Shown piece after piece: positions 7,591-30,691 of a stretch of 43,633 bases of DNA. Location of the stretch: contig WRJQ01000011.1 in assembly GCA_009778485.1 (NCBI GenBank), positions 1 through 43,633 on the forward strand. Reading direction: 5' to 3'. The notes below the pieces were generated by a model. That model saw nothing but the letters and a program-made list of their open reading frames with translations. It had not been told where the DNA came from and did no database searches. A program made the position numbers and the translations under genes. Numbering within the stretch: the first letter of the stretch is position 1; the number at the start of each line of letters is the position of its first letter. Source of the stretch: Oscillospiraceae bacterium. GTDB taxonomy: Bacteria; Bacillota; Clostridia; Oscillospirales; Oscillospiraceae.

Positions 7591-9963
7591 TTACTTTATT
7601 ATCGTGTAGTAGTTATACAGTATCTGCGCGGCTTCTGCGCGGGTGAGGGTGTTGTTCGGGTTGTACCTGTTCGCTGTGTCGCCGTGGAGCAGATCCCATT
7701 GGTACGCTTTCTCGACGGCTCCGCTATACTCGCCCGGCACGCTCGCGTAGTCCGACGGGCGGGAGTCGACGCGTTTTACTGCCCAGCGCGGGTTGAAGCG
7801 TTCTATGTAACGCGTCATCAGCAGCGCTGCCTGGGCGCGGGTCACGGCCGCAGTCGGCTGGAGCCCGTCGCTCTCGGATAGCACGCCCTCTGCCATCGCG
7901 GCGTCAATGTAGGGGGCAAACCAATCAGTGGAGTAGGGGTTTTCCATGCGCCCGTACTGCGTGCGCATCAACATAGCTATTAGCTCGGCGACCGTGAGGG
8001 TTCCGTACGGGTTGAACCTATCGTCGCCCACGCCCTGGATTATGCCGCCGGACGCCACTGAGTCGACAGCGCTGCCGAACCAGTCGTCACTCCTGACGTC
8101 GCTGAACCTTCTCCTGCCGTGCGCGGCGCTGCCGGGCATCGGAGTCTCAGAGGGCGCGTTGACTATCGGCACCAGAAGCTCTTCGCCATCTTCTGTATAT
8201 ACTGTCATATTGCCGTGCGCGGCGCCTGCGATTTCAAGCGAGTATGCGATGTCTACGGATATGTAGTCGCCTTCAGGCAGCAGGTTGACTGTGTAGGAAT
8301 CGGCATCGTCCGATACCGTTATGGCGACAGGTTCGTCGGTATAGGCGACGACCATGTAGTCGCCGGCGGGCAGCCAGTATGCTGTGAACGGCTGAGCGTC
8401 TTCCATGAACTCAGAGTACGGCGCAGCCTCAATCTTCACGGCTTCAGGCAGGTAGTCGACGTCCACGCCGCCGGAGGTATATACTTTGGCGTCTTCCGAC
8501 GCGATTGACAGGAAGACCCTGCCGTATGTGGGCTTCGCTTCCCCGTCGAGCACTTGCTGCAGCCTTATGTAGCCGAGCCGGGTTATGTTGATAGTATTTC
8601 CGCCATACTTATAATTACAGGAGTACGAGCCGTTGGAGTGGGCTGTGAAGTATACGTTCTCGTTGCCGGGCTGGTTGCAGTCGTAGACATATATCCTGGT
8701 GTCTGCACCTACTTGCTCAACCTTGTACGGCACTACTGCGTGGCAGTAGTCGCGGCTCCCGGCCTTCGCGTCGATGTAGAAGATTATCGGGTCTTCTCCT
8801 GTTTTCGCGAAGTTCTCGCAGGCTGCTATCAGCGAGGCGCGGCTGAATATGGGGTGCGGCACTCCGTCGAGGTACCACGATATCTGCGCCTTCTCAATCA
8901 GTTGCGTGACGCGGTGGGTCGAGGATTTCGGCGCGGAGATAGCGTATGTCGTGGAGCCACCGAATGACACGGGGTCCAGGTTTTTGTTGTAGAACTTGGT
9001 CGATGTCACGGAGAAGCCGAAGCAGCTTCCGCCCCAGAGGTTCTGTCCGAACTGTTTGTACAGGGCTGTGCCTCTTTGCTGGCCATAGACTTCGATCCAG
9101 AGCTGCTGAGGCGTTTTGTAGCTTGCTGAAAGGCCGAGGTCGGTTCTGGAGTTTGTGAAGGAGTAGCCGTCCGTCCTGGGCTTGAAGAGTGGCTTTTCGG
9201 GCGGCTTTATCTCGTACATCGCGAGGATTAGTACGTCAGCCGTGATGGAGTTGAACGGGCGGTCCCAGCCTTTGAAGTCGTAGCCTTCGCGCTTAGGGTC
9301 GGGCGGGGCTTGCGCGGCTTCGCCTTCTTTGACGACTTGCGTCTTCAGCGTTGTGCCGTCCCAGTCGCAGAATATTACTGTGAACTCCTTGTCGGGGTCG
9401 GGATCAGGATCCGGGTCTGGGTCGGGGTCGGGATCCGGGTCGGGGTCGGGGTTCGCTTTGAGGTCGCGGTATCTGTATTGCGTTTCGTACCTGTTGCTCG
9501 ATATGAACCAGGAGAGGTCTTTGCCCGTAATGACATAGGCCGTTTTGTTGCCGCGGTTATACGCTATTTGCGTCTGGCCTTCGAAGTATTGCGTCACTGT
9601 CGCCCCGACTGCGTATTTTTTCGCTTTCTCGATCTGGTCGAGCGTCGCTGTCGAGGTGGAATGGTGTTCGCCGTAACTTACGCGGGCTTTGTATGCCGAG
9701 TAGTTGCCGTTGATGCTGAAGTTGCGTATTTCGCGGTAGTATGGCGAGGCTGCTGTTTGCGTTTGGTACCAGACGAGGTTGTAGCCGATGTGTACTTCTT
9801 TCGTTTCCACTTGTCTGGTGGCCGATGCTGTCGCTTTTGTCTTTGACCAGTCCGACCAGGGTCCCCATTGTTCTGCGGCGGATGCTGTTCCGATTGCGGG
9901 TGTGATCGTGCTTATGCACAGGAGCAGCGCGAGCAGCATCGTCAGAGCTTTTTTCGGGTTCAT
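7591..9963 (-). CDS. SLH-anchored cysteine-peptidase-like surface protein
   Basis: This 790-residue secreted protein is the last gene of the minus-strand cluster. AAGGAGG precedes the ATG at 9963. Domains in order are: signal peptide (1-30); a W-rich region with WGPWSDWS, common in clostridial surface proteins; a (DP)n linker at about 172-191; a Listeria-Bacteroides (InlB B-type) repeat at about 193-252; a catalytic-looking domain at about 280-500; and three SLH repeats at about 620-790. The middle domain has GGSCFGFSVT (Cys314), YCHAVVPYKV (His408) and VYDCNQPG (Asp428/Asn430). This order and spacing is what papain- or C39-like cysteine peptidases use. The triad is my inference, and no named family is certain. 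The product should sit on the outside of the wall through the SLH domains. It starts 22 bases after the lipase gene, so they are probably co-transcribed. Confidence 0.8.
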   Translation of the reverse strand: MNPKKALTMLLALLLCISTITPAIGTASAAEQWGPWSDWSKTKATASATRQVETKEVHIGYNLVWYQTQTAASPYYREIRNFSINGNYSAYKARVSYGEHHSTSTATLDQIEKAKKYAVGATVTQYFEGQTQIAYNRGNKTAYVITGKDLSWFISSNRYETQYRYRDLKANPDPDPDPDPDPDPDPDPDPDKEFTVIFCDWDGTTLKTQVVKEGEAAQAPPDPKREGYDFKGWDRPFNSITADVLILAMYEIKPPEKPLFKPRTDGYSFTNSRTDLGLSASYKTPQQLWIEVYGQQRGTALYKQFGQNLWGGSCFGFSVTSTKFYNKNLDPVSFGGSTTYAISAPKSSTHRVTQLIEKAQISWYLDGVPHPIFSRASLIAACENFAKTGEDPIIFYIDAKAGSRDYCHAVVPYKVEQVGADTRIYVYDCNQPGNENVYFTAHSNGSYSCNYKYGGNTINITRLGYIRLQQVLDGEAKPTYGRVFLSIASEDAKVYTSGGVDVDYLPEAVKIEAAPYSEFMEDAQPFTAYWLPAGDYMVVAYTDEPVAITVSDDADSYTVNLLPEGDYISVDIAYSLEIAGAAHGNMTVYTEDGEELLVPIVNAPSETPMPGSAAHGRRRFSDVRSDDWFGSAVDSVASGGIIQGVGDDRFNPYGTLTVAELIAMLMRTQYGRMENPYSTDWFAPYIDAAMAEGVLSESDGLQPTAAVTRAQAALLMTRYIERFNPRWAVKRVDSRPSDYASVPGEYSGAVEKAYQWDLLHGDTANRYNPNNTLTRAEAAQILYNYYTIIK

Positions 9964-9985
9964 GTGATGGCCTCCTTTGGTGTGA

Positions 9986-12900
9986 TTAGCCCAGGCGGAT
10001 AGTGCAGTTTTCGTTTGCGAGTTTGAGTACGGAGCCGGGCTGCACTGTTATCGCTTCGCCTTTCGGCAGCATGTAGTCGCCGAGGAATGTTCCGTTGCTG
10101 GATGAGTCTGTTACTGTGTAGACATTTGCGGCAGGATTGTACGTGACCGTGCAGTGCATTCGGCTGACGTGCGTGTAGTCGTCAGGGAACGGCACGCGTG
10201 ATAGCGAGCCTTTTCCGAGGTAGAGTGTTTCGTTCTCGTTCAGGATTATCACTCTGCCCCCGGCGGATCCTGTCAGGATGCTGACCGACCCCCTTTGCGC
10301 GGCTTGCCCGGACGGCAGGCCTGCGCTGCCGTAACCGTAAGAGCCTGCGCCCCCGTATGCATCCGGGTAGGCGTTGCGGTCTGGCCGGGAGGCGCCGTTG
10401 CCTGTGTACGAGTCCGATCCATCGGGCTGGTACGCATAGCGATCGCTCCCCGCTTGGTAGCCGCTAAAATCAGGCGTTGCGCCGGCTGCCGCTTTGCTCT
10501 TCTTCTGCGAGTAGATTATCACGGCGGCTATGAGGCCTCCCGCGATCAGTATTATCGGGACCACGACGACGGGGTTTCCCCCTCCGCCTTGCGAGCTGCC
10601 CGGCGGTATCGACGGCAGGCTCGGCGCCCACGGCTCGCGGGGTGGGCTGGTCGGGGCGACGGTTCCTGTGCTTTGCGTGAATCGGGCCGTCAGCGAGGCG
10701 TCGGAGCGCACGCAGAGCTTGTATGTCAGCTCCGAGGTTATCAGAGCAGCGTCTTTGTACCAGCCGAGGAAGTCCGCGCCTTCAAGCGGGAAGGCTTCCA
10801 TTACCGTAAACGAGCCCGTCTTGAACTTGCCCGCGCCTACGGCTCCGCCGGAGCCTTCGACTTTCACGTCGACGCTGAATGTCTCAATCGCGGCTTCTTT
10901 CAAGTCGTCGTCGGGAGCTATTCTGCCTTGCGAGCCTCTTAGTTCATAGACTGTTTCCTCTTCGGCGGGGCTGACTGCCCCCAGCGTGGATGTGAACTCC
11001 GCGCCCGCCGTTACCGGCACGTCGTAGTAGTTGACCAGCCTTACGTTGCCGCCGGCGTCACGGCTGTATTCCGCTACCGAGTATGTCATCGTGCCTGTGT
11101 CGGTTCCTGTGATTTTTATCGTATACCCCTCTTCCGCAGGCAGGTAGACTGCTTTTTGCCCATCGCCGTCGTATGTCAGGAGTATGCCGCTATCTCCGTT
11201 GAGTTCCGGGATGTCGTCTTCGATCTTGCCGAGCAATTTCCCTTGCGCGTCGTAGACTTCAAGGTCGACCGGGCAGTCGATGTGAATGACCCTGTAGTAT
11301 ACGGGGTTGCGCCTTGCTACGCCGCCGAAGTAGTCGGCCGGGAGGGCGCGCATCCAGGCTAGGTAGAGTTCCGGGTAGTGGCCTTGCATCAGCGCTTTCT
11401 GGTTTGCTTCGACCTGCTTTTTCGACGCGTCCTGCGAGACGTCTTTGAGCAGGAAGTCGAGGGAGTTTTGCTTTATTGCTATCTTTGGGTCGCTGTCTGC
11501 CGGGACTATCGAGACGAGAGTGCTCGCCACGAGGCCGCCGAAGGCCGCTTGCCACAGCCATTCGTTTACCACAATGCCGGCTATCGGGCCCGAAAATGCG
11601 CTCGCTGCTGCCGCGAGGTCGAATGTCCCGGCTTCCGAGAGGCTTTTCACGAGGCCGTCCTGATATTCTTTGACGTAGTTGTCCCTGTTTTCAAATACTG
11701 TATCGAACAGCACCGGGCATAGCGCCTGGTCGAAGAATATATTCAGGGGTATATCTTTATTCGGGTAGGGGCCGACGTCGTATATCGCTCCGGGCGGCCA
11801 CCTGAAGTCCGGGCCGAAGTTGCCTTTGTGGTACCTGAAGCTGTTTATGAGGTACCAGTTCGCGTTGAGCCCGGAGAGCACGGACGAGCTGCCTGTGAAC
11901 TGCGCGAGCATATCTTTCTCGAGGGTTTTGAATGTATAGCCTTCTTTCGTGTAGTATGTCGCGGGGATGAACTGCGTTTTGCCGTATTTGCTGTATCCCC
12001 AGGATTCCGGCGCGACTCGCGGCACTATGTCGTTCGGGTTGACTATGTTGAAGATGTTCGGATATTCCGAGCTGTTTTCGGAGCTTTTTATCGGTCTTCC
12101 GTTGACCGGCTTTTTCGAGTTGTTGGGGGTCGCGAAGCAGTAGGCGAATATCTCCTGGCGCTTGATTTCCCATGAGGTGACGTCTGTGTAGGCGACTGTG
12201 TCTCCGCTCATGCGCAGCCTGCCGATTTTATAGGGCGATGAGGTCGTCTTGTCTACGAGTTCGGCCGCGAACAGGTTCGCTACTGCGGCGGCTCTGCTGT
12301 ATCCGGTGATCCAGAGTTTTACCTTTGTCTCGCTGCGCAGGCCTGTGCTGTCGAGGTAGGAGGAGAAGTACTCCATGAGGCTGTCTTTGGCTATTTCGAA
12401 GCCTTCGTGTATGTCGCCGGAGCCTATCTTGAAGTCGCCGCCCCATTCCGCCTTATACTCCCCGCCCCGTATCGCGATTGCGATGAGTTCGTAGTCGCCG
12501 TCGCTGCAGGTTATGGTCTTGTGGCCGAACACTGCTGCTATCGAGTCCGCCGTTGGGGTCGGGCGGTAGTTCTCGGCGTGGACGTCTTCGAAGCCCAGGC
12601 CGCGTTTGCCGGGGTCGTCGGCGTCTGTCGGGTTTTTCAGTAGGGATATGACGTTCGCGGCTTGCTCTTCGTCGGTCGCGTAGGGGACGTCTTTGCCGCT
12701 GTTGTCTTTCTTGCGGTTCACGCCGAATGCCGCCATCGCGAGTTCTAGCGACATTGTCGCGAGGTCATGGTCGTATGTCGCGGCTGAATGGTTGAACATA
12801 TCGTCGTAGTAGAGGAACTCTTCGGTCTGCATCTTCCCTTCGCTTGCGTAGCGGAAGAAGCCTTTTACGTCGGGTTTGACGATTTCTTTTGCGGCTTCGC

Positions 12901-13675
12901 CAATTTCATATATAAGGTCTTCGGGGTTTTCCGCGTCATAGGATCCTCTGTTTTGTATATCGTACATGACTTGCTTGGCGAACTTGAATGATTCGGGCTG
13001 CTGGTCGAGGTTCGTGAAGCAGCTCAGCGTGTAGATGTTGTATCCGGCGTTTTTCAGCCGTTGCGCTGTCGTGTAGACGACGTTGGCGTGGGCGTATACT
13101 TTTATGCCGGTGGCCAGCACGTAGTATTCCTGGTAGTAGCTGTACTCCGAGGCTGAGTAGCGGCCGTCGTCCGCGCTTTCGCCCGCTGCGGGCAGGCAGC
13201 CTGAGAAGAAGAGGATGTTGCGGATCATGTGTGTTTGCTCGACGTTTTGCAGCAGCGAGTCTGCCAGCACCAGCGCTTCGTTGAAGTTGGAGAAGCCTGA
13301 GGATGAGCCGCTGTTGCCTTCGGGTATGCCTCGTATCGCGTTGCTGATTGTCCTGATGTCGTCCGTGAAGCCTATTTCGACGCGCGCTGTGCTGGTGCAG
13401 GTTACGAGCGCGACGTAGTTAGTGCCTTCGGCGCCCAGGACTTCGTCGACGAATTTCAGCGCTGCTTGTTTCACGTTTTCGAGGGGTGATCCGACTGTCA
13501 CGGAGTTGTAGAAGCCGGTGGATATGGAGTATGGGCCGGTTGTGTCGAGCACGAGCACGGTGTAGCGCGTGACTTGGGACGCGGTTCGCGCGGCTGTGGC
13601 GTTTTGGCCGGTCACGGGCGCGAGCGTGATGATGAGCAGTAGCGCTATCGCGGCTGTGAGGATCCTCTTTTTCAT
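9986..13675 (-). CDS. VWA-lipase-transmembrane-FHA fusion protein
   Basis: This 1229-residue protein has an unusual architecture. A signal peptide (1-29) is followed by a von Willebrand A-like domain (about 36-260) whose metal site reads DTTGP, so the last MIDAS serine is replaced. A class-3 lipase domain (about 380-800) has the nucleophile elbow GYSRAAA (Ser460), a NPNDIVPRV acid segment and a GHYPELYLAW histidine segment. A beta-rich region with an InlB-like repeat comes next, then one membrane helix (about 1055-1075, followed by KKSK) and a C-terminal FHA domain (about 1132-1229, with HVSRMHC and SSNGTF). The lipase is therefore predicted outside the membrane and the phospho-threonine reader inside. 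FHA binding could connect kinase state to lipase activity or localisation; this is inference. The neighbours are a PASTA kinase upstream and the SLH protein downstream, with gaps under 40 bases. Confidence 0.85.
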   Translation of the reverse strand: MKKRILTAAIALLLIITLAPVTGQNATAARTASQVTRYTVLVLDTTGPYSISTGFYNSVTVGSPLENVKQAALKFVDEVLGAEGTNYVALVTCTSTARVEIGFTDDIRTISNAIRGIPEGNSGSSSGFSNFNEALVLADSLLQNVEQTHMIRNILFFSGCLPAAGESADDGRYSASEYSYYQEYYVLATGIKVYAHANVVYTTAQRLKNAGYNIYTLSCFTNLDQQPESFKFAKQVMYDIQNRGSYDAENPEDLIYEIGEAAKEIVKPDVKGFFRYASEGKMQTEEFLYYDDMFNHSAATYDHDLATMSLELAMAAFGVNRKKDNSGKDVPYATDEEQAANVISLLKNPTDADDPGKRGLGFEDVHAENYRPTPTADSIAAVFGHKTITCSDGDYELIAIAIRGGEYKAEWGGDFKIGSGDIHEGFEIAKDSLMEYFSSYLDSTGLRSETKVKLWITGYSRAAAVANLFAAELVDKTTSSPYKIGRLRMSGDTVAYTDVTSWEIKRQEIFAYCFATPNNSKKPVNGRPIKSSENSSEYPNIFNIVNPNDIVPRVAPESWGYSKYGKTQFIPATYYTKEGYTFKTLEKDMLAQFTGSSSVLSGLNANWYLINSFRYHKGNFGPDFRWPPGAIYDVGPYPNKDIPLNIFFDQALCPVLFDTVFENRDNYVKEYQDGLVKSLSEAGTFDLAAAASAFSGPIAGIVVNEWLWQAAFGGLVASTLVSIVPADSDPKIAIKQNSLDFLLKDVSQDASKKQVEANQKALMQGHYPELYLAWMRALPADYFGGVARRNPVYYRVIHIDCPVDLEVYDAQGKLLGKIEDDIPELNGDSGILLTYDGDGQKAVYLPAEEGYTIKITGTDTGTMTYSVAEYSRDAGGNVRLVNYYDVPVTAGAEFTSTLGAVSPAEEETVYELRGSQGRIAPDDDLKEAAIETFSVDVKVEGSGGAVGAGKFKTGSFTVMEAFPLEGADFLGWYKDAALITSELTYKLCVRSDASLTARFTQSTGTVAPTSPPREPWAPSLPSIPPGSSQGGGGNPVVVVPIILIAGGLIAAVIIYSQKKSKAAAGATPDFSGYQAGSDRYAYQPDGSDSYTGNGASRPDRNAYPDAYGGAGSYGYGSAGLPSGQAAQRGSVSILTGSAGGRVIILNENETLYLGKGSLSRVPFPDDYTHVSRMHCTVTYNPAANVYTVTDSSSNGTFLGDYMLPKGEAITVQPGSVLKLANENCTIRLG

Positions 13676-13714: not shown

Positions 13715-16700
13715 CTACCCTCCGGGGGCGGGTTCTATTACTGCGTAGTAGACCAGGAGGGTGTCGCCTGTCGTGAACTCGATCAGTATGGAGTATGTGC
13801 CTGAGACTTCCGGGACTGTGTAGGGCGATATCGCCCTTATGAGGCTCGACGGGTAGAGCTCCACGCCTGTCTTGTTACTGGCGTACCTCACCTGGAAGCT
13901 GAAGCCCGTTAGGTCTATGGTCTCCCCGGGGAGGTATACGGTTTTATTGGGCTGCGTATTTATGCCGGTGACTCTCGACACTTCGTCGGTCTCGACCGTA
14001 ATCCTGCAGGTAGCTGTTTTCGTCGGGTCGGCTTTGCTGGCGGCGGTCAATGTCGCGACGCCGTTCGCCCTGGCGAGGAAGAGGCCTTCGTCCGTCACCT
14101 GGACTATGCTCGAATCGCTGGAGGTCCATGTGACCGAGTCATCCGGAGGCTTTACCGTAACGGCGCAGGAGTCGCTTTTCGCCCTGTCGTCCTTGCTTGT
14201 CGCTGTGACTGTCACCGCGCTGCCGCTGCCGGAGACGTTCACGGTCGCGGTTATCCTCGCGCTCATGCCTATATCGACGGTCGCGGAGGTGCTGCTCAGG
14301 CTGATTGAGGTCACGTGCGGCACGTCCGCTTTGACGAGCCCGGTTTGCGATACTGTCACGCCGGTTCCGCTGACTGTCCATGTCACTGCGTCGTTCGCCT
14401 GCATGCCGCCTATCAAAGCGTTGAGCTGGTAGGACTGGCCGCCGTCGAGGGTGAGCGTTTTGTTATCGAGCGTCACGCTGATCTCTGTCACGGTTACGGA
14501 GCATGTGGCTGTCTTGCCGTTCGGCGTTCTCGCCGTGATCGTGGCGCGGCCTTCGCTGACGCCCGTGACCTGGCCGCTCGAGTTCACCGTGGCGACCGAG
14601 GTGTTGCTCGACGTCCAGACTATGCCGTTGCGGCTTGCGTTCGAGGGAGTGAGCGCAATGGTTATCTGGGAAGACTTGCCTTTACCTACTATGAGGCTCG
14701 GCGGGGTCAGTTCGATGCTGTCTATCTTGTCCGGGTCGCGCCCTTTGCTTACCGTCAGGTACACGGTTTCGTTCCTGTTGACTACCATTCCGCCCGGCGG
14801 GTTTTGCGAGATCACGTTGTCCCTGGGTACGATATCGTCGAAGGCTTCGACTATCGAGTAGCTGAGACCGGCGTTCGTAATGGCTGTCGTCGCGTTCTGC
14901 CTGCTAATGCCCGTGACGTGCGGGACTGTGGCTGTCTGTTTGCCGGCGCTTATCGTCAGGGTTACTGTGTCGCCTGCTCTTGCGGAGGTGTTTGCTGCGG
15001 GGTACTGCTTTATGACATGCCCGCTCGGTACTGTGTCGCTATATTCGTTCGGGGATAAATTTACATTGAACCCCTGGCCGCGCAGGGCGTTTTCGGCCGC
15101 TGCCTGCGTCATGCCCGCTACGTTCGGCACGGTGCGGGGTGGTGGGCCGCTGCTGACGGTGAGGGTCGCGGTCGTGCCTTTGGAGTGCGTCGTGCCTGCG
15201 GCGGGGTACTGGGAGATCACGTTGCCCTGCGGCACTGTGCTGCTCTCGGCATAGCTTACGCTGGACTGGAATCCGGCGTTCCCCACTTCGCTGCGCGCTC
15301 TGCTTTCGTTCATGCCGACTACGTTCGGCATGCTGATAAGGGTCTCTGCGGGGCCGCTGCTGACGGTCAGCACCACCGCGGCGCCTTTGTTGACTTGCGT
15401 GTTGAATGGTATGCTTTGCTTCGTCACCGTCCCGGCGGGCGAGGAGCTGTTCTCGTGGTCCACGGTCACGGAGATGCCTTTCGAGGATAGCTCGGCGCGG
15501 GCCGCGGCTTCGCTCATGCCTACTACATTGGGCATCGGGAAGCTTTCGCCGCCCTCGCTTACTGTCAGGCGCACTGTGTCGCCGGGCCTGACGCGGGTGT
15601 ACGCTGCGGGTTGCTGCGTGATGACGAGCCCGGCTCTGACATCGTCGTTCTTCACAAGCTCCACCTCGACTTTGAGGCCTTTGCCTTCGAGGAGGGTTAC
15701 CGCCGCCGTTCTTTCTTCATACACGACGTCGTCGAGCTCGAATATATTCTCACCGAGCGATACGGTGAGCTGAATCGTGCTGCCTGTCAGCAGCATCGTG
15801 CCGGCGGGGGCGCTCTGCCACATTACGACGTCTTTATCGTATTCGTCGCTGTATTCCCAGGCTTGTATCGAGAAGACGAAGCCTTCGGTTTGCATCAGGG
15901 TCTGCGCGGCGCGGTACGCCATGCCGACGAAGAGCGGTACTTCCCTGGGGACTTCCTCGATATCTTCGTTCGGGTCTATGCCCATGGATACTGTCAGTTC
16001 CACGGTCGATCCTACCTGCACCCTGTCCCCTGCTTCCACGCTTTGCGCTATTACGGTATTGGCGGCGAACACGCGGCTGTAGTCGAAGTCGATGATCACG
16101 TCGAGATTAAGCGCTTCGAGCGCTTCTACCGCTTCGCCGACGTTGAGGCCCGATACTTCGGGGAGCACTACGGTTTCGGCGCCGGCGCTTATGGTCAGGT
16201 TGACCATCGTGTATTCAGCGACGTAGTAGCCGGGGTCTACGTCCTGGGCGAGTATCATCCCCGCCGCTATCCTGTCGGAGTTCTCCCTTCGTGCGACCAT
16301 GTGGTTGAGCCTGGCGTCGTCCAGGCGTCTTTCGCCTTCGTCGAGCGTATTATTCACTATCGACGGGACGGTCACCATGCCTTCGATTGGCTCAATCCCC
16401 CTACCGGGCTCCTTACGCAGGTCGATTACGCCGGTCGCGAACAGTATGCCGATGACTATGACGGTGAGGGCTGAGGCGGTTGCTGTGATTTTCGTCCACA
16501 GCGGCCACTTCAGCACGTCGATTTTCTTGATCCTGCCCTGCCTGCGCGGCACGATGTCCTCGGACGTAAGTTCTGCTTCGAACGTTGCCATATCGGGTGT
16601 CCTGTCTTCTATGCGCACGTTGAGGGCGTTGAGGATTGCGGTCTCGTGGTTCTCGTCTATGTCTTTGACGAAGGCGGAGAGCGGCTTGAGCACGTCTTTT

Positions 16701-17632: not shown

Positions 17633-17641
17633 CATGGGGCG

Positions 17642-21052: not shown

Positions 21053-21093
21053 ATGCAGTCGACAGGCGGCTAGGGTTCGATTCCCGACTGCAT
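21053..21093. repeat. Hairpin containing a tRNA T-arm-like sequence
   Basis: The perfect 9-bp arms ATGCAGTCG / CGACTGCAT (21053-21061, 21085-21093) enclose GGGTTCGATTCCC, which resembles a tRNA T-loop. It overlaps the end of the zinc-ribbon FHA gene and supplies its last residues. There is no full cloverleaf. A similar fragment, GTTCGAGTCCCGCTCCCC, lies at about 22749-22766. Confidence 0.5.
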
Positions 21094-22772: not shown

Positions 22773-24095
22773 TCATTCGAGGCCTACTTTGATCATGTAT
22801 TCGGGCGAGTACAGGTAGAAGCGGCTTTCGGGGGCGACCGCGCGATAGGCGCCGTGTTCGTATCTGTGCCCCGCGTCGCTGAATGTCCCGTGGGATGAGA
22901 TGTCCATCAGGTAGAAGCAGCCGGCTTTGCGCTCGAAGCGGATTATGCAGTGCGTCCTGCTTATGTTCGGGTCGTTCAGGATTATATTGCATTGCCCTGT
23001 GGAGCGGCCGACGATTATGTCCATGTTGCCGGGTATCGCCCATTTGTAGCCTTTGAACCTTCCGCCGTCCACGAGGAGATATGGGTTCCCGTGCGTTTCA
23101 TGCGCTATCGGTTTTTCGATTTTCGGGGCGTTGACCTCCGCCTGGACGACGCTGAAGAAGTTGTCGATCGTCGGGAACCTTTCTTTCGGGTTCAGGCGCA
23201 GGGCGACGTCTATCACGTCGGATATCGCGGGGCTCATCGCGGGGACTATGCCTGTCAGGGGCGGCACGGGCATCCCGCTGAGCCTGGCGTGCGCTTCGGG
23301 GATTGTCGTGCCTGAGCTGAGGTAGTAGAATGTCGCGGCGAGGGCGTATATGTCTGTCCAGGGGCCCTGGTCGCCGCTGCTTGAGTATTGCTCGGGCGGC
23401 GCGAAGCCCGGCCTGAAGATGACGGATAGCCCGCTGCTTTTTTCGCTGACGAAGCTGCGCGTCGCTCCGAAGTCTATGAGTTTTACCTGCCCGGCGCGGG
23501 TTATGAAGATGTTGTCCGGGCTGACGTCCCTGTGGAGGAAGCCGCGTTGGTGGACGTCGTGCAACGCGCTTGTGACGTATAGCAGTATTTCTATCGCCAG
23601 GTTGTACGGGAGGCAGGAGCCGAAGCTTTTCGCGAGGCCTCTGGCTGTCACTCCGTCGAGGTATTCCATCGCGAAGTAGGCGGTTCCGTTCTCCCTGAAG
23701 GAGTGGTATACCTGGACTATGTGAGGGTTGCCGGAGAATCTTTTCAGCGTGTCCGCTTCTCCGATGAACCTTTCTACGCCGTGGTCGAACAGTTCCTTGC
23801 CGGAGCCGCACAGTACCGTCGAGTCTGAGCCGCGCGAGGCGAGCGTCGAGGGGAAGTATTCTTTTATCGCGCAGATTTTGCCTGTCGCGGTGCTTTTCGC
23901 GAGGTAGGTTATGCCAAAGCCTCCGACGCCGAGCACGCGGCCGACGATGTATTGTTTGTTGAGCTGGCTTCCGGGCGGGAGGACTATCGCTTTTTCGGGG
24001 ATTTCGATGGCGTTGTATCCGCACACGCCGCATTTGCCGCCTGCGAAGGACGTTTGGAAGCAGTTCGGGCATAGGTTGTGATATATGGCGGCCAT
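22773..24095 (-). CDS. Soluble Ser/Thr kinase with C-terminal FHA domain
   Basis: This 440-residue protein has AAGGGGA before the ATG at 24095. A zinc ribbon (Cys9, 12, 22, 25) is followed by a kinase domain with LGVGGFG, Lys78 in AIKEY, HRD 188-190, Asn195 and DFG 208-210. No membrane helix exists. The FHA domain (about 340-440) has VGRS at 362-365, ISRTHC around 378-383 and SSHGTF in place of the usual SSNGTF, so one binding-loop residue differs. Joining writer and reader in one chain suggests self-scaffolding or processive phosphorylation of FHA-bound partners. It is the only active kinase of the cluster without an extracellular part. It may act as a shared or amplifying kinase, which is inference. 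Confidence 0.92.
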   Translation of the reverse strand: MAAIYHNLCPNCFQTSFAGGKCGVCGYNAIEIPEKAIVLPPGSQLNKQYIVGRVLGVGGFGITYLAKSTATGKICAIKEYFPSTLASRGSDSTVLCGSGKELFDHGVERFIGEADTLKRFSGNPHIVQVYHSFRENGTAYFAMEYLDGVTARGLAKSFGSCLPYNLAIEILLYVTSALHDVHQRGFLHRDVSPDNIFITRAGQVKLIDFGATRSFVSEKSSGLSVIFRPGFAPPEQYSSSGDQGPWTDIYALAATFYYLSSGTTIPEAHARLSGMPVPPLTGIVPAMSPAISDVIDVALRLNPKERFPTIDNFFSVVQAEVNAPKIEKPIAHETHGNPYLLVDGGRFKGYKWAIPGNMDIIVGRSTGQCNIILNDPNISRTHCIIRFERKAGCFYLMDISSHGTFSDAGHRYEHGAYRAVAPESRFYLYSPEYMIKVGLE

Positions 24096-24173: not shown

Positions 24174-26051
24174 TCAGCCGTAGAAGACGAATTTTTCGTT
24201 GCCTGCCGTGATGACGTCGTTGCCGTTCAGTTTCCTCTTGCCCGCGAGCGGGACGCCGTTGAGGTAGGTGCCGTTCGTCGAGTTCAGGTCTGATATGAAG
24301 AACCCGTCCGCGTCCGCTTCTATCACGAAGTGCTGCCGCGACAGTTTGCCGTCGTCAAAGCTCAGGTTGTTTATCTGCTCGGAGCGGCCTACGAAGAAGC
24401 TGCCGTATATGTCGAGGTCGATTTTATTCGCGTTGCCGGCCATGTCGGTGACGACAAGGGTGGCGCGGGCGCTGTCCGGCGTCGTGAAGTGGTGCTTGAA
24501 TTCCACGGCGTCGCCGAAGCCGATTTTGCCGTCGACCTGCACTACGCCTCTGTGTTTTTTGATCGTGAATATAAGCACCAGGGCCAGCGCGGCGACTGCC
24601 AGTATGATGAGCAGCAGCACAAGCCACCAGTAGTCGTCGATGAAGCTGCGCGGCGCCTCGATTTGTATTATGGGCGGCTCGCTCTCCTGCGAGCTGCCGG
24701 GGCTGCTTTGTCCGGGCCCTTCGGGTTGCTGCGGGCTGTTGTATGTATTGCCGGTTGGCGCGGGCGTCTCTTCGGGGGGCGTGCGGCCTTTGAACTCGAA
24801 GTTATACTGCCCGATGATCGGGTTCTTTTCCATGGAGACGTCCGTGATGTTGTTCATTCTCAGCGTGTATTCGCCTGTATACGGCACTCCGTCGAAGGTT
24901 ATGACGGCGGTGTTTGTGCCCGGGTCATACGAGACGCTCTGTATCGCCAGGGCCTTGCCGCTTTCGTCCGTTACGATGTAGTTGTCTTTTATATCTGCCC
25001 CCTGCAGACGTTTGCTGAAGACCACCATAAACTCCTGCTCCCCTGTCTGCGTCGGGTCGAATGTGACCCAGGGGGCGTCGTAATCCGGGATTGAGGAGTC
25101 GAGCATCACAGGCATCGACGATGTCATACTCCCGCCTACCCGGTTGACGGTGAGCTGCAGCGTGTGTTCCTTGAAGTCGATGAGGTTGTTATCCGCGCGC
25201 AGGCGGGCGACTTGGACGCGGTCGAGTTTGTCGATGTATGCCCGAAATGTCTCGTCGAGGTTTTGCGGCGTCACGGCGGCGAACTGGCCTTTGCTGCGCC
25301 GCGCGAGTTCCCCGAGAGCGTCCAGCGCGGCTTTTGCCGACGCTGTCGTGCCGAAGTTGCTGAAGCCGAATGTGTATATGGGGGCTGTGCTTTCGGTTAC
25401 TGTGTCTATGATCTCGCTGCTTGTGTGCCCTCCGCCGTCTGTGTCGTCCAGGCCGTCTGAGAACAGGATCGCGACGCTTCTGTCGGGCAGGTTGGGCGAC
25501 TTGTTCTCGGCGATAGCCAGCAGCGTGAGTATTCCGTCGTAGAATCTTGTGTTGCGGTCCCTTCTGTGCAGCGTGTCGATTTTCTCGAGGGCTTCTATTT
25601 TGCTTTCGCCTCCGTGCAGGAGTATGTTCACTTCTTCACCGAAGGTGAGCAGTATCATGCGGTCGCGCATCGGCATCGTTTCGCGGAACTCTTTGAGGCT
25701 GTTCTTTATCGCGTTCGTCTGCGCCTGCTGCATGGAGCCGGAGACGTCGACTGCGAAGATGTAGCGTGTGCCTTTGTCGTATTCCGTCACGTTTTCCACG
25801 TTGAGCGGAGCGCCGTCCAGCGTGGCTGTCAGCTCGCCTGCTCTGACCGGAGCTGGGGCTTCGGCGTTGTCGGCGTTATTGTCGATCAGGAACATGACGT
25901 CTATTTCCGGCATGTTCACGGTAGCGCGCTCGAAGCGCAGCGTCGCGGCGTTTGCGGCGGTCGCTGTCGTCGTCATGCCTGCGAGCATGGCTGCCGCGAG
26001 CAGCAGCGCGGTCAGCAGCGCCAGTCCTCTTGCATGCTTCTTCACAGCCAT
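24174..26051 (-). CDS. VWA-transmembrane-FHA protein
   Basis: This 625-residue protein has AAGGAGG before the ATG at 26051. A signal peptide or signal anchor (about 10-35) is followed by a von Willebrand A domain (about 95-285) with an intact metal site: DVSGSM at 102-107, then ILFSDGLDD. A Big_5-like domain (about 340-430: WVTFDPTQTG, TVSYDPG-like turn, YTLRMNNI) comes next, then a Pro/Ser linker, one membrane helix (about 470-495) and a C-terminal FHA domain with VGRS, LSRQHF and STNGTY. The adhesion-type domain is predicted outside and the phospho-reader inside, the same layout as the lipase protein. It overlaps the upstream zinc-ribbon FHA gene by 10 bases, so the two are translationally coupled. 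It probably transmits surface contact or assembly state to the kinase circuit. Confidence 0.9.
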   Translation of the reverse strand: MAVKKHARGLALLTALLLAAAMLAGMTTTATAANAATLRFERATVNMPEIDVMFLIDNNADNAEAPAPVRAGELTATLDGAPLNVENVTEYDKGTRYIFAVDVSGSMQQAQTNAIKNSLKEFRETMPMRDRMILLTFGEEVNILLHGGESKIEALEKIDTLHRRDRNTRFYDGILTLLAIAENKSPNLPDRSVAILFSDGLDDTDGGGHTSSEIIDTVTESTAPIYTFGFSNFGTTASAKAALDALGELARRSKGQFAAVTPQNLDETFRAYIDKLDRVQVARLRADNNLIDFKEHTLQLTVNRVGGSMTSSMPVMLDSSIPDYDAPWVTFDPTQTGEQEFMVVFSKRLQGADIKDNYIVTDESGKALAIQSVSYDPGTNTAVITFDGVPYTGEYTLRMNNITDVSMEKNPIIGQYNFEFKGRTPPEETPAPTGNTYNSPQQPEGPGQSSPGSSQESEPPIIQIEAPRSFIDDYWWLVLLLIILAVAALALVLIFTIKKHRGVVQVDGKIGFGDAVEFKHHFTTPDSARATLVVTDMAGNANKIDLDIYGSFFVGRSEQINNLSFDDGKLSRQHFVIEADADGFFISDLNSTNGTYLNGVPLAGKRKLNGNDVITAGNEKFVFYG

Positions 26052-26611
26052 TTTCTGTCCTCCTTGCAGTAGGGGATGAATACCATTTCGGCGTTTCCCA
26101 GGCGGATTGTGTCGCCTTCGGCGAGTTTGGAGGCTCCGGTGAGCAGGGTTCCGTTGAGGTATGTGTTCGTGCCTTCGCCTTGCGCTATGTAGTACGCGGC
26201 GTTCGCGGGGTCGTATAGTATCGAGCAGTGGTTTTCGCGGGATATTTCTTCGTCGTCAGCCAGGGCGACGTCCATTTTTATCGAGCGGCCGATGAAGTTG
26301 CGGCCTGTGTGCAGCCTGTAGTCCCTGCCTCTTTCGCTGCCGCTTTGCCCTACGAGCCAGCCGACGACCGGGTCGGCTTGCATTTTCGATGTGAATATGC
26401 CTACGGTCACGTCGTCTTTGGCGCCTGTCGTGATGCGGCGGCTGCGTTCTTGCGGTTTTGTGCCGCTGATTTGCGGTTCGCGCATCGCCACGGTTTTGGG
26501 GTCTTCGCCTTTGCTGACGGGCGTGGCTGCGGCGTTGCCTTCGCAGTGCGGGCAGGCCGGGTATTTCAGGTCGTCGAAGTAATGTCCGTTGGGGCACTTT
26601 TTTATGGCCAT
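26042..26611 (-). CDS. Zinc-ribbon FHA adaptor protein (paralogue)
   Basis: This 189-residue soluble protein has an N-terminal half-ribbon with Cys6, His10, Cys20 and Cys23 (KKCPNGHYFDD, CPHC), exactly the spacing of the 21070-21711 product. A linker with Thr-rich stretches follows (KTVAMREP, RRITTG), which are possible kinase targets. The C-terminal FHA domain has GRNFIGRS, ISRENH and YLNG. The stop lies inside the start of the VWA-FHA gene (10-base overlap), so the pair should be made together and may form a complex. AAAGGTTGG upstream serves as ribosome-binding site. Confidence 0.88.
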   Translation of the reverse strand: MAIKKCPNGHYFDDLKYPACPHCEGNAAATPVSKGEDPKTVAMREPQISGTKPQERSRRITTGAKDDVTVGIFTSKMQADPVVGWLVGQSGSERGRDYRLHTGRNFIGRSIKMDVALADDEEISRENHCSILYDPANAAYYIAQGEGTNTYLNGTLLTGASKLAEGDTIRLGNAEMVFIPYCKEDRKWL

Positions 26612-26634: not shown

Positions 26635-26674
26635 AGTTAGTAGTTACGAGTTGCGAGTTACGAGTTGCGAGTTA
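26635..26674. repeat. Heptanucleotide tandem repeat (GAGTTAC/GAGTTGC)
   Basis: Alternating GAGTTGC and GAGTTAC units fill the gap between the pseudokinase gene and the zinc-ribbon FHA gene. It is the same family as 24115-24163. Confidence 0.85.
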
Positions 26675-26680
26675 GGGGGT

Positions 26681-28186
<1,506 letters not shown>

Positions 28187-28238
28187 AGAGTTTTCCTCCT
28201 TGCGCTTTTTGTGCCGATACGTTTTTGTTTCTGTGGCG

Positions 28239-28306: not shown

Positions 28307-28316
28307 TATGGGGCGG

Positions 28317-28424
28317 GAGTTCGGGCGGCCGAGGACGTCCGCCCCTACGGCGGGGACGGGGGAGCGTGGCTCACAGCGCTGCAAGGAGGGCGGCCACAAG
28401 GGTCGCCTCTACGGGGCGAACACG
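28317..28424. repeat. Two dispersed hairpin repeats after the PP2C gene
   Basis: The first unit, 28317-28352 (GGGCGG, loop, CCGCCC, then CTACGG), is the inverted copy of 3063-3098. The second, about 28390-28424, holds GGGCGGCCACAAGGGTCGCC followed by CTACGG, and reaches into the last codons of the PP2C gene. Both may end or stabilise the upstream transcript. Confidence 0.55.
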
Positions 28425-29122
28425 GCGATTGCCGAGTAGTTATCCATGTCCCTGCCTTTTCCGTTATCCTTTACATCCTGTTCCATCAGTTCGAGCCATT
28501 TTTCCGGCGTGGGGGCTTTTTTCAGGTGGCGCTGCATCTGTTTTTCCGTAATCAGTTCCCAGAACCCATCGCTGCACAGCAGGTATCTGTCGCCCGGCTC
28601 TATGGCGTCTTCGTCCGACAGCTCAAATCGCGGGCTCTCCCATTCGACGCCCATGACCCGCAGCAGCCTGTTGCGGTCCTCATGGTAGCGGATCGCTTTT
28701 TCCTTGATTTCTCCCGACAGCACCAGCATTTGCGGCACGCTGTGGTCCAGCGTCCTCGCGGCGAACTTCCCGGCGGCGAACCTGTATACTCGCGAGTCGC
28801 CAATATGCCCCCAGCTTACTTTGCCGTTATCGGCGAGCAGGAGCGCGAGCGTGGTTTTCATCTCCTCGGGCGCTCTCTCCTTGCGTTGCTGCTCCATGAG
28901 CCGCTCCTGCGCCTGCGTGAAGCACTCGTCGAGCCCGCCTCCGTTTTTGAACACTTCAGCGCATACGGCGGTCACGAGCTGCGAGGCGTCTTCGCCCCTT
29001 CCGTGCCCGCCCAGGCCGTCCGCAAGGGCAAAGAGTATGCGTCCGCCTTCTTTTTCAATGAGAACGCTGTCTTCGTTGATCTCGCGGCTGCCTACGTTCG
29101 TTATCTGCGCGAACGATATCAT
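28409..29122 (-). CDS. PP2C-family protein phosphatase (second)
   Basis: This compact 237-residue PPM/PP2C phosphatase is little more than the catalytic core. Metal motifs in order are NEDSVLI, FALADGLGGHG, HIGDSRVYRF, LLCSDGFWE and MDNYSAIAV. AAGGGTGAT lies nine bases before the ATG at 29122. The C-terminus (AVFAP) coincides with a dispersed repeat, so the last few residues may have been altered by it. It starts 10 bases after the LytTR gene ends, so it belongs with the regulator and amidohydrolase as the promoter-proximal trio. It is diverged from the 21737-22681 phosphatase in length and sequence, so the two probably act on different substrates. Confidence 0.92.
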   Translation of the reverse strand: MISFAQITNVGSREINEDSVLIEKEGGRILFALADGLGGHGRGEDASQLVTAVCAEVFKNGGGLDECFTQAQERLMEQQRKERAPEEMKTTLALLLADNGKVSWGHIGDSRVYRFAAGKFAARTLDHSVPQMLVLSGEIKEKAIRYHEDRNRLLRVMGVEWESPRFELSDEDAIEPGDRYLLCSDGFWELITEKQMQRHLKKAPTPEKWLELMEQDVKDNGKGRDMDNYSAIAVFAP

Positions 29123-29132
29123 TAAGTATTAA

Positions 29133-29864
29133 TCACCCTTCCGTGCCGTTCTCGGCGTACTCGTCGTAGTTGCCTTCAAAGGCTTTGTATGCGCTCTGGT
29201 AGTATCGTTTGCTGATCGGGACGACCTGCCCCGATTCAAGCGTCGCGTCCGTTTTCGTCATGCGCCTGATCCGCTCCGGGTTGACCAGAAAGCTTTGGTG
29301 CGTCCTTATGAGCTTGCCTTCGCACAGTTGCTCAATGTCGTCCAGTTTCGCGTAGCATTCCAGGCTGCTGTCGCCCATGACGAGTGATATTTTGCGCTTG
29401 GAGCTCTCGACAAAGTCGATGTGGCGCATATTGAGTTTCTGGCGGCATCCGTTCGTCGTTATGATCAGATATTTAGATACCGTGTCCTCCCGCTCGCGCA
29501 TATAGCGGTTGATCTCGGCCGACAGGCTCGACGTCGAAACCGGCTTTGTGAGGTAGCCGAACGCTTTGTATTTGTAGCCTTCGTAGACGTATTCTTCGTG
29601 CCGGGTTATGAAGATGATGTCTGTGGCGACATCGTTTTCGCGGATTGTCCCGGCTACCGCAAGGCCGTCCGCTCCGGGCATCTCGATGTCGAGCAGTATG
29701 AGGTCGAACGCGAACAGCCCGTCAGCGATGCGGTCGATGACTTCCGCGCCGTCCGCGAATACTTCGATCATGAGGTCGTCTTGCTCGAACAGGATGTTCG
29801 ACACGGCGTTTTGGATTTCTTTGCGGTGTTCCTGGTTGTCGTCGCATACAGCGATCTTCAGCAT
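29133..29864 (-). CDS. LytTR-family response regulator (orphan)
   Basis: The 243-residue protein has a receiver domain (1-120) with the acidic pair Asp8-Asp9, phospho-acceptor Asp59 in LILLDIEMPG, and the Lys of the LTKP motif. A LytTR DNA-binding domain (about 140-235: HIDFVESSKRK, LIRTHQSFLVNP, VVPISKRYY) follows. AgrA/LytR-type regulators bind paired direct repeats and switch on surface or secretion genes. No histidine kinase is encoded in the window, so the partner is elsewhere, or the Ser/Thr kinases themselves may act on it. The gene lies 11 bases after the amidohydrolase and 10 bases before the PP2C gene. A possible target site is at 28273-28306. Confidence 0.93.
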   Translation of the reverse strand: MLKIAVCDDNQEHRKEIQNAVSNILFEQDDLMIEVFADGAEVIDRIADGLFAFDLILLDIEMPGADGLAVAGTIRENDVATDIIFITRHEEYVYEGYKYKAFGYLTKPVSTSSLSAEINRYMREREDTVSKYLIITTNGCRQKLNMRHIDFVESSKRKISLVMGDSSLECYAKLDDIEQLCEGKLIRTHQSFLVNPERIRRMTKTDATLESGQVVPISKRYYQSAYKAFEGNYDEYAENGTEG

Positions 29865-29875
29865 TTACGGTTCAC

Positions 29876-30691
29876 TCACATTCCCGATAATCCGTAGATA
29901 CGGCAGGCGTTGTTGTAGTAGAAGTCTTCGAGGTTCTCTTCGGGTATGATGTGCTCGAACAGGCGGAGGTAGTCTGCGAAGCCTGTTAGGGGCCAGTCTG
30001 TGCCGAACATGAACTTTTCATAGTTTTCTACATACGCTATCCAGGTTTTTAGTTGCTCGACATAGCCGCTTTGTTTCTTCAGGTAGCTTTCGACGTCGAG
30101 TTTTCCCGCTATCAGCCCGGAGAGGTCCACGGCGACGTTGTTGTTTTTTTCAACTACGGCGGCTGCGTCCATGAGCCAGGGGTTGCCGAAGTGGCACATC
30201 ACGAACTGTACTTCGGGGTGCGCTACGGCTATGTTGTCCATCTGCATCGGGTGGCAGTATTTGAGCAGCGCCCTGGGATGGGCTGTCACGCCCATGTGGA
30301 CGGCTACGGGCTTTTTGTATTTTTGCGCGAGTTCGTAGAAGGGTGTGTAGACCGGGTCGTCCAGGTCGTATGGCGTGTATCCGGCGTATATTTTCAGCCC
30401 GACGCATTGCTGCAGGGCGAGGTGCTTCTCTGCCATTTCGACGCTTTTGTCAATTTTGTCGTCGTCCAGCGCGTTGTGCCCGACTCCGGCACAGTAGCTC
30501 ATAAAGTCAGGGTAGCTGATTGTCTCGCCGTCCATCCCGAGGTTGCTCATGACTACGGCGCGGACTATGCCAAGCTGTGCGAATGTTTCACGCAGTTGGT
30601 GTTCTGTGTTGTCGTACCCTGCTTCTTTGGCGAGGTCGTCGAAGTGCGGGCGTCCGACCCAGTAGTGTATGTGAGCGTCGATTTTTTTCAT
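29876..30691 (-). CDS. Amidohydrolase-family (TIM-barrel) metal hydrolase
   Basis: This 271-residue protein has the amidohydrolase_2 layout. KIDAHIHYW near the N-terminus carries the HxH metal pair, VMCHFGNPW holds a further histidine (about residue 165), and FGTDWPL near the C-terminus holds the metal-binding or catalytic aspartate. Members hydrolyse or decarboxylate small cyclic or aromatic acids and amides; the substrate here cannot be read. The ribosome-binding site is weak (GCAGTGAAC). It is the first gene after the near-perfect minus-strand promoter at 30754-30782 and only 11 bases from the LytTR gene. It might make or remove a small signal, but a chance neighbour is equally possible. 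Confidence 0.85.
   Translation of the reverse strand: MKKIDAHIHYWVGRPHFDDLAKEAGYDNTEHQLRETFAQLGIVRAVVMSNLGMDGETISYPDFMSYCAGVGHNALDDDKIDKSVEMAEKHLALQQCVGLKIYAGYTPYDLDDPVYTPFYELAQKYKKPVAVHMGVTAHPRALLKYCHPMQMDNIAVAHPEVQFVMCHFGNPWLMDAAAVVEKNNNVAVDLSGLIAGKLDVESYLKKQSGYVEQLKTWIAYVENYEKFMFGTDWPLTGFADYLRLFEHIIPEENLEDFYYNNACRIYGLSGM

Follow-up and report, generated by a model that had tools for sequence, protein, structure and literature searches.

A run of 14 genes on one strand of a contig from an Oscillospiraceae bacterium (C11, WRJQ01000011.1; the whole stretch of 43,633 nt analysed is referred to as the window) encodes kinases, a pseudokinase, FHA proteins and phosphatases beside secreted and surface proteins. 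This raises the question whether these genes belong to a secretion system, serve general cell-wall homeostasis, or form a signalling unit of their own. Genes are named below by their lower coordinate.

Gene organization

The 14 co-oriented genes occupied nt 7591–30691 of the minus strand, every ORF being present where the preliminary description had placed it. Genes had been called with a simple longest-ORF script; the most likely starts were nt 17530 for 13715 (ORF opening at 17635) and nt 28186, a GTG, for 26681 (ORF opening at 28399), each preceded by a purine-rich Shine-Dalgarno-like sequence. With these starts corrected, intergenic gaps ranged from -10 to 222 bases, in keeping with the mostly short gaps and single overlap noted earlier. 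Ahead of the whole run lay a sigma-70-like promoter, TTGACA-17-TATACT (nt 30782–30754, minus strand), a consensus-only prediction that matched at 11 of 12 positions, in line with the near-perfect promoter noted earlier; it was the best of 7 promoter-like sites, a number that was unremarkable since shuffled sequences gave 3.9 ± 2.2. A consensus scan found no minus-strand terminator-like site in the gaps within the cluster and predicted, from consensus only, a terminator-like hairpin on the same strand just past the last gene (nt 7425–7440). An operon-like layout of the run is supported.

The first gene, 29876 (29876–30691), encoded an amidohydrolase (Amidohydro_2, Pfam), possibly a passenger; Amidohydro_2 was absent from the recurrent neighbour clusters shown for the 80 related loci described below. 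The last gene, 7591 (7591–9963), encoded a secreted SLH-anchored surface protein with 3 SLH stretches (Pfam), and both genes look like passengers. The product of the second gene, 29133 (29133–29864), was a LytTR-type response regulator (Pfam); in 9 of the 80 loci, a member of one LytTR-like cluster, grouped by blastp, lay no more than 250 bases from an EssC, WXG100 or module gene.

Predicted kinases and their partners

Pkinase domains (Pfam) were found in 13715 (13715–17530), 17642 (17642–19606) and 22773 (22773–24095), with a weak match of 40 bits in 26681 (26681–28186); all four products had a zinc ribbon. Alignment with other kinase domains (228 in all) showed that the first three kept the K, HRD-Asp and DFG-Asp residues, whereas N, S and G replaced them in 26681, which places it among bacterial pseudokinases. 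This membrane protein had an acidic, DA/DT-rich outer tail, and its AF2 model was a kinase fold (pLDDT 82), with PpkA as the best PDB fold match. The Ser/Thr kinase 13715 was followed by a transmembrane segment (TM), 8 PASTA stretches and Big_2 (Pfam), scored 712.7 against a cut-off of 450 for PknB_PASTA_kin (NCBIfam), and was the only product to combine a complete kinase, a TM and extracellular PASTA repeats. In the Ser/Thr kinase 17642, a TM separated the inner kinase from an outer SBP_bac_8 domain (Pfam, AF2, Foldseek, hydropathy); judged from its AF2 model (pLDDT 93), whose Foldseek matches were sugar- and dinucleotide-binding solute-binding proteins (SBPs), this ectodomain (residues 353–654) is predicted to have a MalE-like SBP fold. 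From their domains, the membrane kinases look able to sense sugars or the cell wall. The third Ser/Thr kinase, 22773, was fused to an FHA domain, had no TM by hydropathy, and grouped with other FHA-kinases in the kinase tree.

At least one catalytic residue was missing in 25 of the 228 aligned kinase domains; excluding L076, L097, L144 and L048, which were partial or did not belong to the module, left 21. A single origin of these pseudokinases was rejected, as FastTree spread them over 7 clades, and in a quick IQ-TREE run of 74 rows the pseudokinase state needed 4 changes, at least 3 of them forced by starred branches. The window pseudokinase formed a long branch of unsure placement, its nearest rows being PASTA kinases.

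Six of the 14 products had an FHA domain scoring above the Pfam cut-off: 9986 (9986–13675), a secreted protein with VWA, lipase class 3 (Lipase_3), TM and cytoplasmic FHA parts; 19736 (19736–20872), a polytopic membrane protein with FHA at its C-terminus; the zinc-ribbon FHA (ZnFHA) adaptors 21070 (21070–21711) and 26042 (26042–26611), the latter overlapping the next gene by 10 bases; the kinase 22773; and 24174 (24174–26051), with signal peptide, VWA, TM and cytoplasmic FHA. VWA was confined to 9986 and 24174 (Pfam), topologies being taken from hydropathy and the adaptors also from alignment. The canonical phosphothreonine residues, which we take to be R, S, H and N, were all kept in only 19736 and 24174; relative to this assumed set, 9986 had K for R, 22773 had H for N, and both ZnFHA adaptors had an insertion within the SxxH motif and no NGT. 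PP2C phosphatases were encoded by 21737 (21737–22681; phosphatase A) and 28409 (28409–29122; phosphatase B), the latter retaining what we take to be the PP2C Asp motifs. The inventory given earlier of three kinases, a pseudokinase, six FHA proteins and two PP2C enzymes was therefore borne out by Pfam and the catalytic-residue alignment, as were its VWA, lipase, solute-binding, PASTA and SLH modules by Pfam.

A phage-defence kinase was rejected as a reading on a PADLOC search of 10 of the 14 proteins: the matches of the three kinases, to PD-T4-6, MAD6 and further kinase models, covered the kinase domain, PDC-M21C was matched weakly by one PP2C, and six of the 10 proteins had no match.

Conservation in related genomes

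The check proposed in the preliminary description, a search for conserved synteny, was run on 80 related loci fetched with a kinase-SBP profile, in which kinases are hence present by construction. At least two kinases, PP2C and FHA were combined in 40 of them; PP2C occurred in 53, an FHA protein in 56, ZnFHA in 44, VWA-FHA in 21 and an FHA-kinase in 18. All recognized genes were co-oriented within their locus (472/472). The window shared an eight-gene order, PP2C-ZnFHA-VWA/FHA-kinase-PP2C-ZnFHA-TM/FHA-kinase, with four loci (L111, L112, L113, from the cultured Butyribacter intestini, and L125), departing from it by its pseudokinase behind the first PP2C, and the shorter order ZnFHA-VWA/FHA-kinase-PP2C was found in 10 of the 80. 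The genes thus did not occur separately in relatives without a shared neighbourhood, and order and co-orientation indicate that the cluster is not a chance neighbourhood. That envelope genes with separate transcription have simply come together here, as gaps of up to 222 bases and the passenger-like amidohydrolase and SLH genes might suggest, is very improbable in view of this conservation.

The ZnFHA marker was found in 36 of the 394 genomes of the order sample. Within the genus (19 genomes), the full cluster was not found in another genome, and 24174 was matched in 3, the window genome included; one congener, G014, had six adjacent module genes on a contig whose truncation left a seventh incomplete.

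Linkage to secretion loci

The window contains the membrane kinase, PPM phosphatase and FHA component of the type VII secretion (T7SS) variants T7SSe and T7SSc–T7SSj. EssC was absent from the locus and FtsK_SpoIIIE from the 24 ORFs scanned; the single EssC match of the genome (64.5% complete) was an FHA-containing equivalog on another contig, C56. Of six WXG100 matches, five also lay on C56, one, below cut-off, was on C51, and none was on C11. Thus, the earlier statement that a secretion ATPase and WXG100 proteins are lacking held for the window and failed for the genome, and the cluster as a T7SS member was rejected because its locus has neither EssC nor WXG100. EssB/YukC (PF10140) was not found in this 64.5% complete genome, a B. 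subtilis control being matched; of 15 genomes searched, one had it (G002, beside an EssC gene on C17).

Among relatives, the core module and EssC shared one locus in the congeners G008 and G010, and the two were also physically joined in G177, G290 and G394. EssC adjoined the module in 8 of the 80 loci, 7 of which had WXG100 genes, none being recognized in L082; L080, on a 12-kb contig, had WXG100 genes without EssC. In the 21 genomes behind the VWA-FHA loci, searched at E 1e-100, EssC was unmatched in 16, on another contig in 4, and adjacent in 1, L091, where a long-form module was immediately followed by the genes for EssC (1660 residues) and four WXG100 proteins; the window form is therefore not always free of T7SS. 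VWA-FHA and EssC coincided in 1 of 21 loci, with about 2.1 expected. Of 10 distinct sampled genomes having both the ZnFHA and EssC markers, 5 carried the two no more than 15 kb apart on a single contig (random placement in 2 Mb, 1.8e-7). Association by genome was modest (5 observed and 1.4 expected in 119 genomes, p 0.005; 6 and 2.6 in 394, p 0.038; both uncorrected for relatedness); the two order searches each covered 394 genomes under shared handles, presumably the same sample. On the kinase-SBP tree, 6 changes separated T7SS-linked from other rows, starred branches requiring 4 or more of these, and the T7 label was modestly clustered (18 of 500 shuffles equally low). In this tree, 21 of 51 rows were unlabelled (flank under 5 kb or cut contig), L066 was left out as the same record as L051, and "alone" denotes nothing recognized within about 10 kb; EssC and Tad probes were drawn from few reference sequences.

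One alternative is that the cluster is a detached regulatory arm of the C56 T7SS that phosphorylates EssC or its partners and gates WXG100 secretion remotely. The presence of the C56 genes in the same genome, with a tetranucleotide make-up close to that of the window (r 0.945), the joined loci of G008 and G010, and the long-form module directly before EssC in L091 agree with this. However, it seems unlikely: the lack of an EssC match in 16 of the 21 VWA-FHA genomes favours a stand-alone cluster, G014 has a sister module and no EssC match (86% complete), and the FHA domain of the C56 EssC has S where we expect the key R. The earlier term "self-contained" fits the window form, for which standing alone appears, from the loci compared, to be the usual state among the genomes examined. 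As a description of every case it was rejected, since EssC and WXG100 lie elsewhere in the genome, on C56, and in some relatives the module adjoins EssC; it is one of several states.

A general role in Tad control was also rejected, linkage being seen in only G102 (CpaF and ZnFHA both on C18), G024 (Tad-type genes adjoining the module, T2SSE-family ATPases on other contigs) and L105 (CpaF at 2515–3351 of a contig which, at 96,450 bases, is as long as the L105 record). Eighteen of 37 further module genomes had a T2SSE-family ATPase, none near ZnFHA, many contigs being short; in G177 the two were on one contig, more than 600 kb apart.

Possible role of the cluster

PASTA ectodomains are known muropeptide sensors, and 13715 passed the PknB_PASTA_kin cut-off; the cluster might be an expanded PrkC/PrpC set (PASTA kinase and phosphatase) for general cell-wall homeostasis, with no dedicated apparatus. 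This is improbable, since a separate kinase next to a PP2C gene (C9, 5602–8416), the best Pkinase match of the genome, fits the housekeeping pair, and the module, unlike such a pair, is patchy in distribution and carries VWA, SBP and FHA parts.

The explanation we favour, and consider probable, is that Clostridia have a portable cassette for phospho-signalling at the envelope and that the cluster is a stand-alone copy of it, whose genes recur co-oriented and are linked to EssC/WXG100 loci in some relatives and to Tad loci rarely. It looks reusable rather than a one-off, because related gene sets are found repeatedly in gut Clostridia, in most cases with no secretion locus alongside and in some cases with one. 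From the domains we infer that the membrane kinases would be activated by a ligand bound to the MalE-like ectodomain or by muropeptide at the PASTA repeats, and would phosphorylate membrane partners on threonine, the pseudokinase being a likely scaffold or substrate. FHA modules, either soluble (the ZnFHA adaptors and the FHA-kinase) or on the cytoplasmic ends of VWA proteins, would dock to these marks and so link the inside state to the outer VWA and lipase domains, and the two PP2C enzymes would reset phosphorylation. The most likely output of the window form is the VWA-FHA proteins, whereas secretion would be what this core gates in relatives linked to a T7SS. The observations of the preliminary description are thus confirmed, and its interpretation is partly supported.

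More tentatively, and with appreciable doubt, the sensor-kinase/pseudokinase/FHA/PP2C cassette may be a general phospho-plug-in repeatedly coupled to and uncoupled from envelope machines (T7SSe-like secretion and occasionally Tad pili), and the long form with VWA-TM-FHA may itself be a surface apparatus, so far undescribed, that is switched by phosphorylation and follows a logic like that of inside-out receptor signalling.

Such a cassette would bring sensors, erasers and readers together in one defined set, and through the MalE-like ectodomain its SBP kinase would act as a receptor that turns sugar directly into threonine phosphorylation. No description of it was found in the literature searched, which lay mostly outside subscription papers and preprints, and a marker present in 36 of 394 genomes would represent a sizeable signalling repertoire. 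Since the cassette is found both where a secretion system is present and where none is, its signalling can be investigated independently of the machine; that threonine phosphorylation might control T7SS variants is mentioned as a possibility still to be decided in the available part of a recent article (PMC11217815).

Similarity to known phosphorylation systems

The writer, reader and eraser logic of the cluster is that of the T6SS PpkA-Fha-PppA threonine phosphorylation pathway, with its kinase, FHA reader and PP2C eraser, and the pseudokinase model best matches PpkA; Pfam recognized no T6SS genes among the 24 window ORFs, TagH reaching 19.5–38.7 bits against a cut-off of 120. With the PrkC/StkP-PrpC pair, the window has a PASTA-ectodomain kinase and PP2C in common, and adds a zinc-ribbon N-terminus, a Big_2 tail, extra kinases, and FHA and VWA partners. 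Like EssB/YukC of T7SSb, 26681 is a pseudokinase that crosses the membrane once and has lost all three motifs, but replacement of EssB by it was rejected, as it had no YukC Pfam match and YukC was outside its top 50 fold matches. The GAP1-N2 conflict systems, described in the available part of PMC7159879 as actinobacteria-restricted and GTPase-centred, also have zinc-ribbon kinase, PP2C and VWA genes side by side; no GTPase of this kind was recognized by Pfam among the 24 window ORFs.

T7SSe and the variants T7SSc–T7SSj were described by Garrett, Higginson and Palmer (2024; PMC11217815). As far as the available part of that article goes, one kinase is given per system where any is named, no word beginning with PASTA occurs in the main text, neither an SBP kinase nor a zinc-ribbon FHA or VWA-TM-FHA protein is mentioned in the variant sections, and TscE, which has a VWA domain, is described as cytoplasmic. 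By its account of T7SSe, L069 and L089 resemble this system in having EssC, WXG100, DUF6382-FHA and a secreted Ig-like (Big_2) protein, L069 also having YukD (Pfam), whereas the window has neither EssC nor WXG100. What the window shares with T7SSc–T7SSj, on the same account (PMC11217815), is a membrane Ser/Thr kinase, a PPM (PP2C) phosphatase and, with some of them, an FHA protein.

Organization of the cluster

All 14 ORFs between 7591 and 30691 were on the minus strand, and ORF and domain calls bore out the gene and domain counts of the preliminary description. In transcription order, they encoded an amidohydrolase, a LytTR regulator, PP2C-B, a zinc-ribbon pseudokinase (26681, named like the others by lower coordinate), zinc-ribbon FHA 2, a VWA-TM-FHA protein (24174), a zinc-ribbon kinase-FHA, PP2C-A, zinc-ribbon FHA 1, a polytopic TM-FHA protein (19736), a zinc-ribbon kinase-TM-SBP, a zinc-ribbon kinase-TM-PASTA-Big_2, a VWA-lipase-TM-FHA protein (9986-13675), and an SLH surface protein (7591-9963). 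The starts of two genes were shifted inward, to 17530 and 28186, each preceded by a Shine-Dalgarno-like sequence, leaving intergenic gaps of -10 to 222 bases. Consensus scans, which give predicted sites and not evidence of transcription, placed a promoter at 30782-30754 (11 of 12 consensus matches) and one minus-strand terminator-like site beyond the cluster end, with no such site on that strand inside any cluster gap. Just past the cluster, 5481-7433 encoded a surface protein that combines DUF7601 and an Asp-rich stretch with an LPQTG-type sorting signal at its C-terminus. The window corresponds to C11, one of the 82 contigs of a 1.69-Mb draft genome that is 64.5% complete.

Predicted kinases, FHA proteins, phosphatases and ectodomains

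The three window kinases kept K, HRD-Asp and DFG-Asp when aligned with 227 other kinase domains, whereas 26681 had none of the three in the same alignment of 228. The cytoplasmic part of 26681 was nevertheless modelled as a kinase fold (AlphaFold2, mean pLDDT 82), with PpkA and PknB as best PDB matches. The canonical FHA residues were all present in 19736 and 24174; the other four FHA domains deviated at one or more of these positions. Both PP2Cs had intact Asp motifs. Since the ectodomain model of the kinase-SBP (mean pLDDT 93.1) matched MalE-like sugar-binding proteins and a dinucleotide-binding protein, with query TM-scores of 0.60-0.73 among the 50 matches listed, its ligand is likely a carbohydrate or similar small molecule. 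In the single protein of 9986-13675, a Lipase_3 domain sits between the outer VWA and the inner FHA; its likely nucleophile motif is GYSRA instead of GHSxG. The SLH protein carried a central GGSCFGFS...HAVVP...YDCN pattern resembling a papain- or transglutaminase-type Cys/His site, in a region with no Pfam or PDB sequence match.

Recurrence of the module

A kinase-SBP profile scanned against 84,980 species genomes gave at least 578 confirmed stretches, and gene strings of the best 80 loci were assembled from longest-ORF calls combined with profile hits. Two or more kinases were present in 64 of these 80, any FHA in 56, PP2C in 53 (at least two in 33), zinc-ribbon FHA, kinase-SBP and kinase-PASTA in 44 each, VWA-FHA in 21 and FHA-kinase in 18; all 472 recognised genes were co-oriented within their loci. 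Except for the pseudokinase behind the first PP2C, the window order PP2C-ZnFHA-VWA/FHA-kinase-PP2C-ZnFHA-TM/FHA-kinase recurred in L111, L112, L113 (Butyribacter intestini) and L125, and the inner order ZnFHA-VWA/FHA-kinase-PP2C in 10 of the 80, including Hungatella effluvii (L078) and Lachnospiraceae A2 (L107). In the congener G014, genes for kinase-PASTA, kinase-SBP, two TM-FHA proteins, zinc-ribbon FHA and PP2C had the same order as in the window, followed by one end of a kinase-FHA gene, where the contig breaks off. Zinc-ribbon FHA occurred in 15 of 119 relatives and, across the order, in 36 of 394 genomes, a patchy distribution of the kind that an accessory cassette should show. Zinc-ribbon kinases were also seen in the Bryobacterales loci L135 (with VWA-FHA), L140 and L144; parts of the module therefore extend outside Clostridia.

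At least one catalytic residue was missing in 25 of the 228 kinase domains, and removal of four partial or unrelated rows left 21 pseudokinases, including that of the window. Since 19 of the 80 best loci had one (directly after kinase-SBP in 12 of the 19), a dead kinase is a frequent part of the module, perhaps acquired by more than one route: on a 74-row tree the label required four changes, at least three of these forced by starred branches (those used to count forced changes). The window pseudokinase lies instead between PP2C-B and zinc-ribbon FHA 2, and on the tree it sat on a long branch whose nearest rows were PASTA kinases.

Link to type VII secretion

The preliminary description had noted no secretion ATPase or WXG100 protein, which held for the window but not for the genome. 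Contig C56 (10,040 bases) encoded EssC above the TIGR03928 cut-off (1077.5 versus 778.4), five tandem WXG100 genes behind it, and a YukD-sized ORF of 84 residues without a Pfam match. C56 is probably from the same organism, because its tetranucleotide make-up (r 0.945) and GC (0.578 versus 0.562) match those of the window. An Ala/Thr-rich ORF follows the WXG100 genes (together L007:7340-10039, L007 being on C56) and runs off the contig, and ExbB/MotA and ExbD genes adjoin the locus on the opposite strand (L007:139-964).

Direct linkage was found elsewhere. In the congeners G010 (C22) and G008 (C77), EssC and WXG100-like ORFs formed one co-oriented run with PP2C-B, kinase-PASTA, PP2C-A, zinc-ribbon FHA and kinase-SBP; EssC also lay beside the module in L069 (EssC end only), L077, L082, L089, L108, L119 and L130, and in G177, G290 and G394 the zinc-ribbon FHA and EssC markers shared a strand and were separated by about 8 to 12 kb. 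The genome-level association of these markers was modest; physical adjacency, in 5 of 10 distinct sampled genomes having both, was far above random placement. G010 has a second module copy on C25 (L048-L049), with no EssC recognised within the stretch read, and with the T7SS-linked copy (C22, L055-L056) it makes a natural pair for comparing the two states. On C22, L055:11209-12387 encodes a candidate T7SS effector. Its N-terminal part is lipase-like (Mbeg1-like; GHSQGG) and a stretch at its C-terminus resembles the N-terminus of the adjacent L055:9816, an arrangement described for T7SS lipases as "reverse".

The long form, with a VWA-FHA protein, is usually without EssC, since 16 of the 21 genomes behind VWA-FHA loci had no EssC match at E 1e-100 and four of the five positive ones had it on a different contig from the module. 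The exception was L091, with EssC and four WXG100 genes directly behind the module. This stretch, L153:1328-10176 (G461:C38), encodes a 1660-residue EssC and is the sole adjoining T7SS among the 21. EssB/YukC was matched in one of 15 genomes searched (G002, beside EssC on C17) and in none of the other 14, so the module-linked systems among those searched do not look like T7SSb.

A careful tree, with 51 kinase-SBP proteins labelled by context, placed that of G014 as sister of the window protein (100/99), followed by Tad-linked G024 (96/95). Their starred 20-row clade held 6 T7-linked, 2 Tad-linked, 4 alone (nothing recognised within about 10 kb) and 8 unlabelled rows. T7-linked versus other required six changes over the tree, at least four forced by starred branches; each may be a gain or a loss, directions that this tree cannot tell apart. 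Tad linkage, seen in G102, G024 and L105 and in none of 37 further module genomes, is rare and not a general feature of the module.

Proposed working and comparison with known systems

The SBP and PASTA ectodomains would act as sensors outside and the kinases as writers on the inner side. FHA adaptors might then recruit zinc-ribbon proteins, as well as the kinase-FHA, to membrane partners once these are phosphorylated, cytoplasmic FHA tails could tie VWA surface proteins to phosphorylation state, and the two PP2C enzymes would reset it. The LytTR gene upstream of the module genes suggests transcriptional control; among the 80 best loci, 9 had a LytTR-like gene no more than 250 bases from a gene of the module, EssC or WXG100.

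Kinase/FHA/PP2C logic is known from T6SS. It is also known from T7SSc-j, according to the available text of PMC11217815. The pseudokinase may serve as a scaffold, by analogy with EssB and MviN in the available part of PMC12599244. A literature search returned no description of the stand-alone long form, the MalE-like SBP kinase, VWA-TM-FHA proteins, the recurring pseudokinase, or switching between free-standing and T7SS-linked states. The parts listed for T7SSe in the text available from PMC11217815 include DUF6382-FHA, a secreted Big_2 protein and YukD. Of these, the first two were encoded in both L069 and L089, and a Pfam YukD gene in L069; beyond the components named in that text, both loci have zinc-ribbon FHA, kinase-SBP, kinase-PASTA and a second PP2C.
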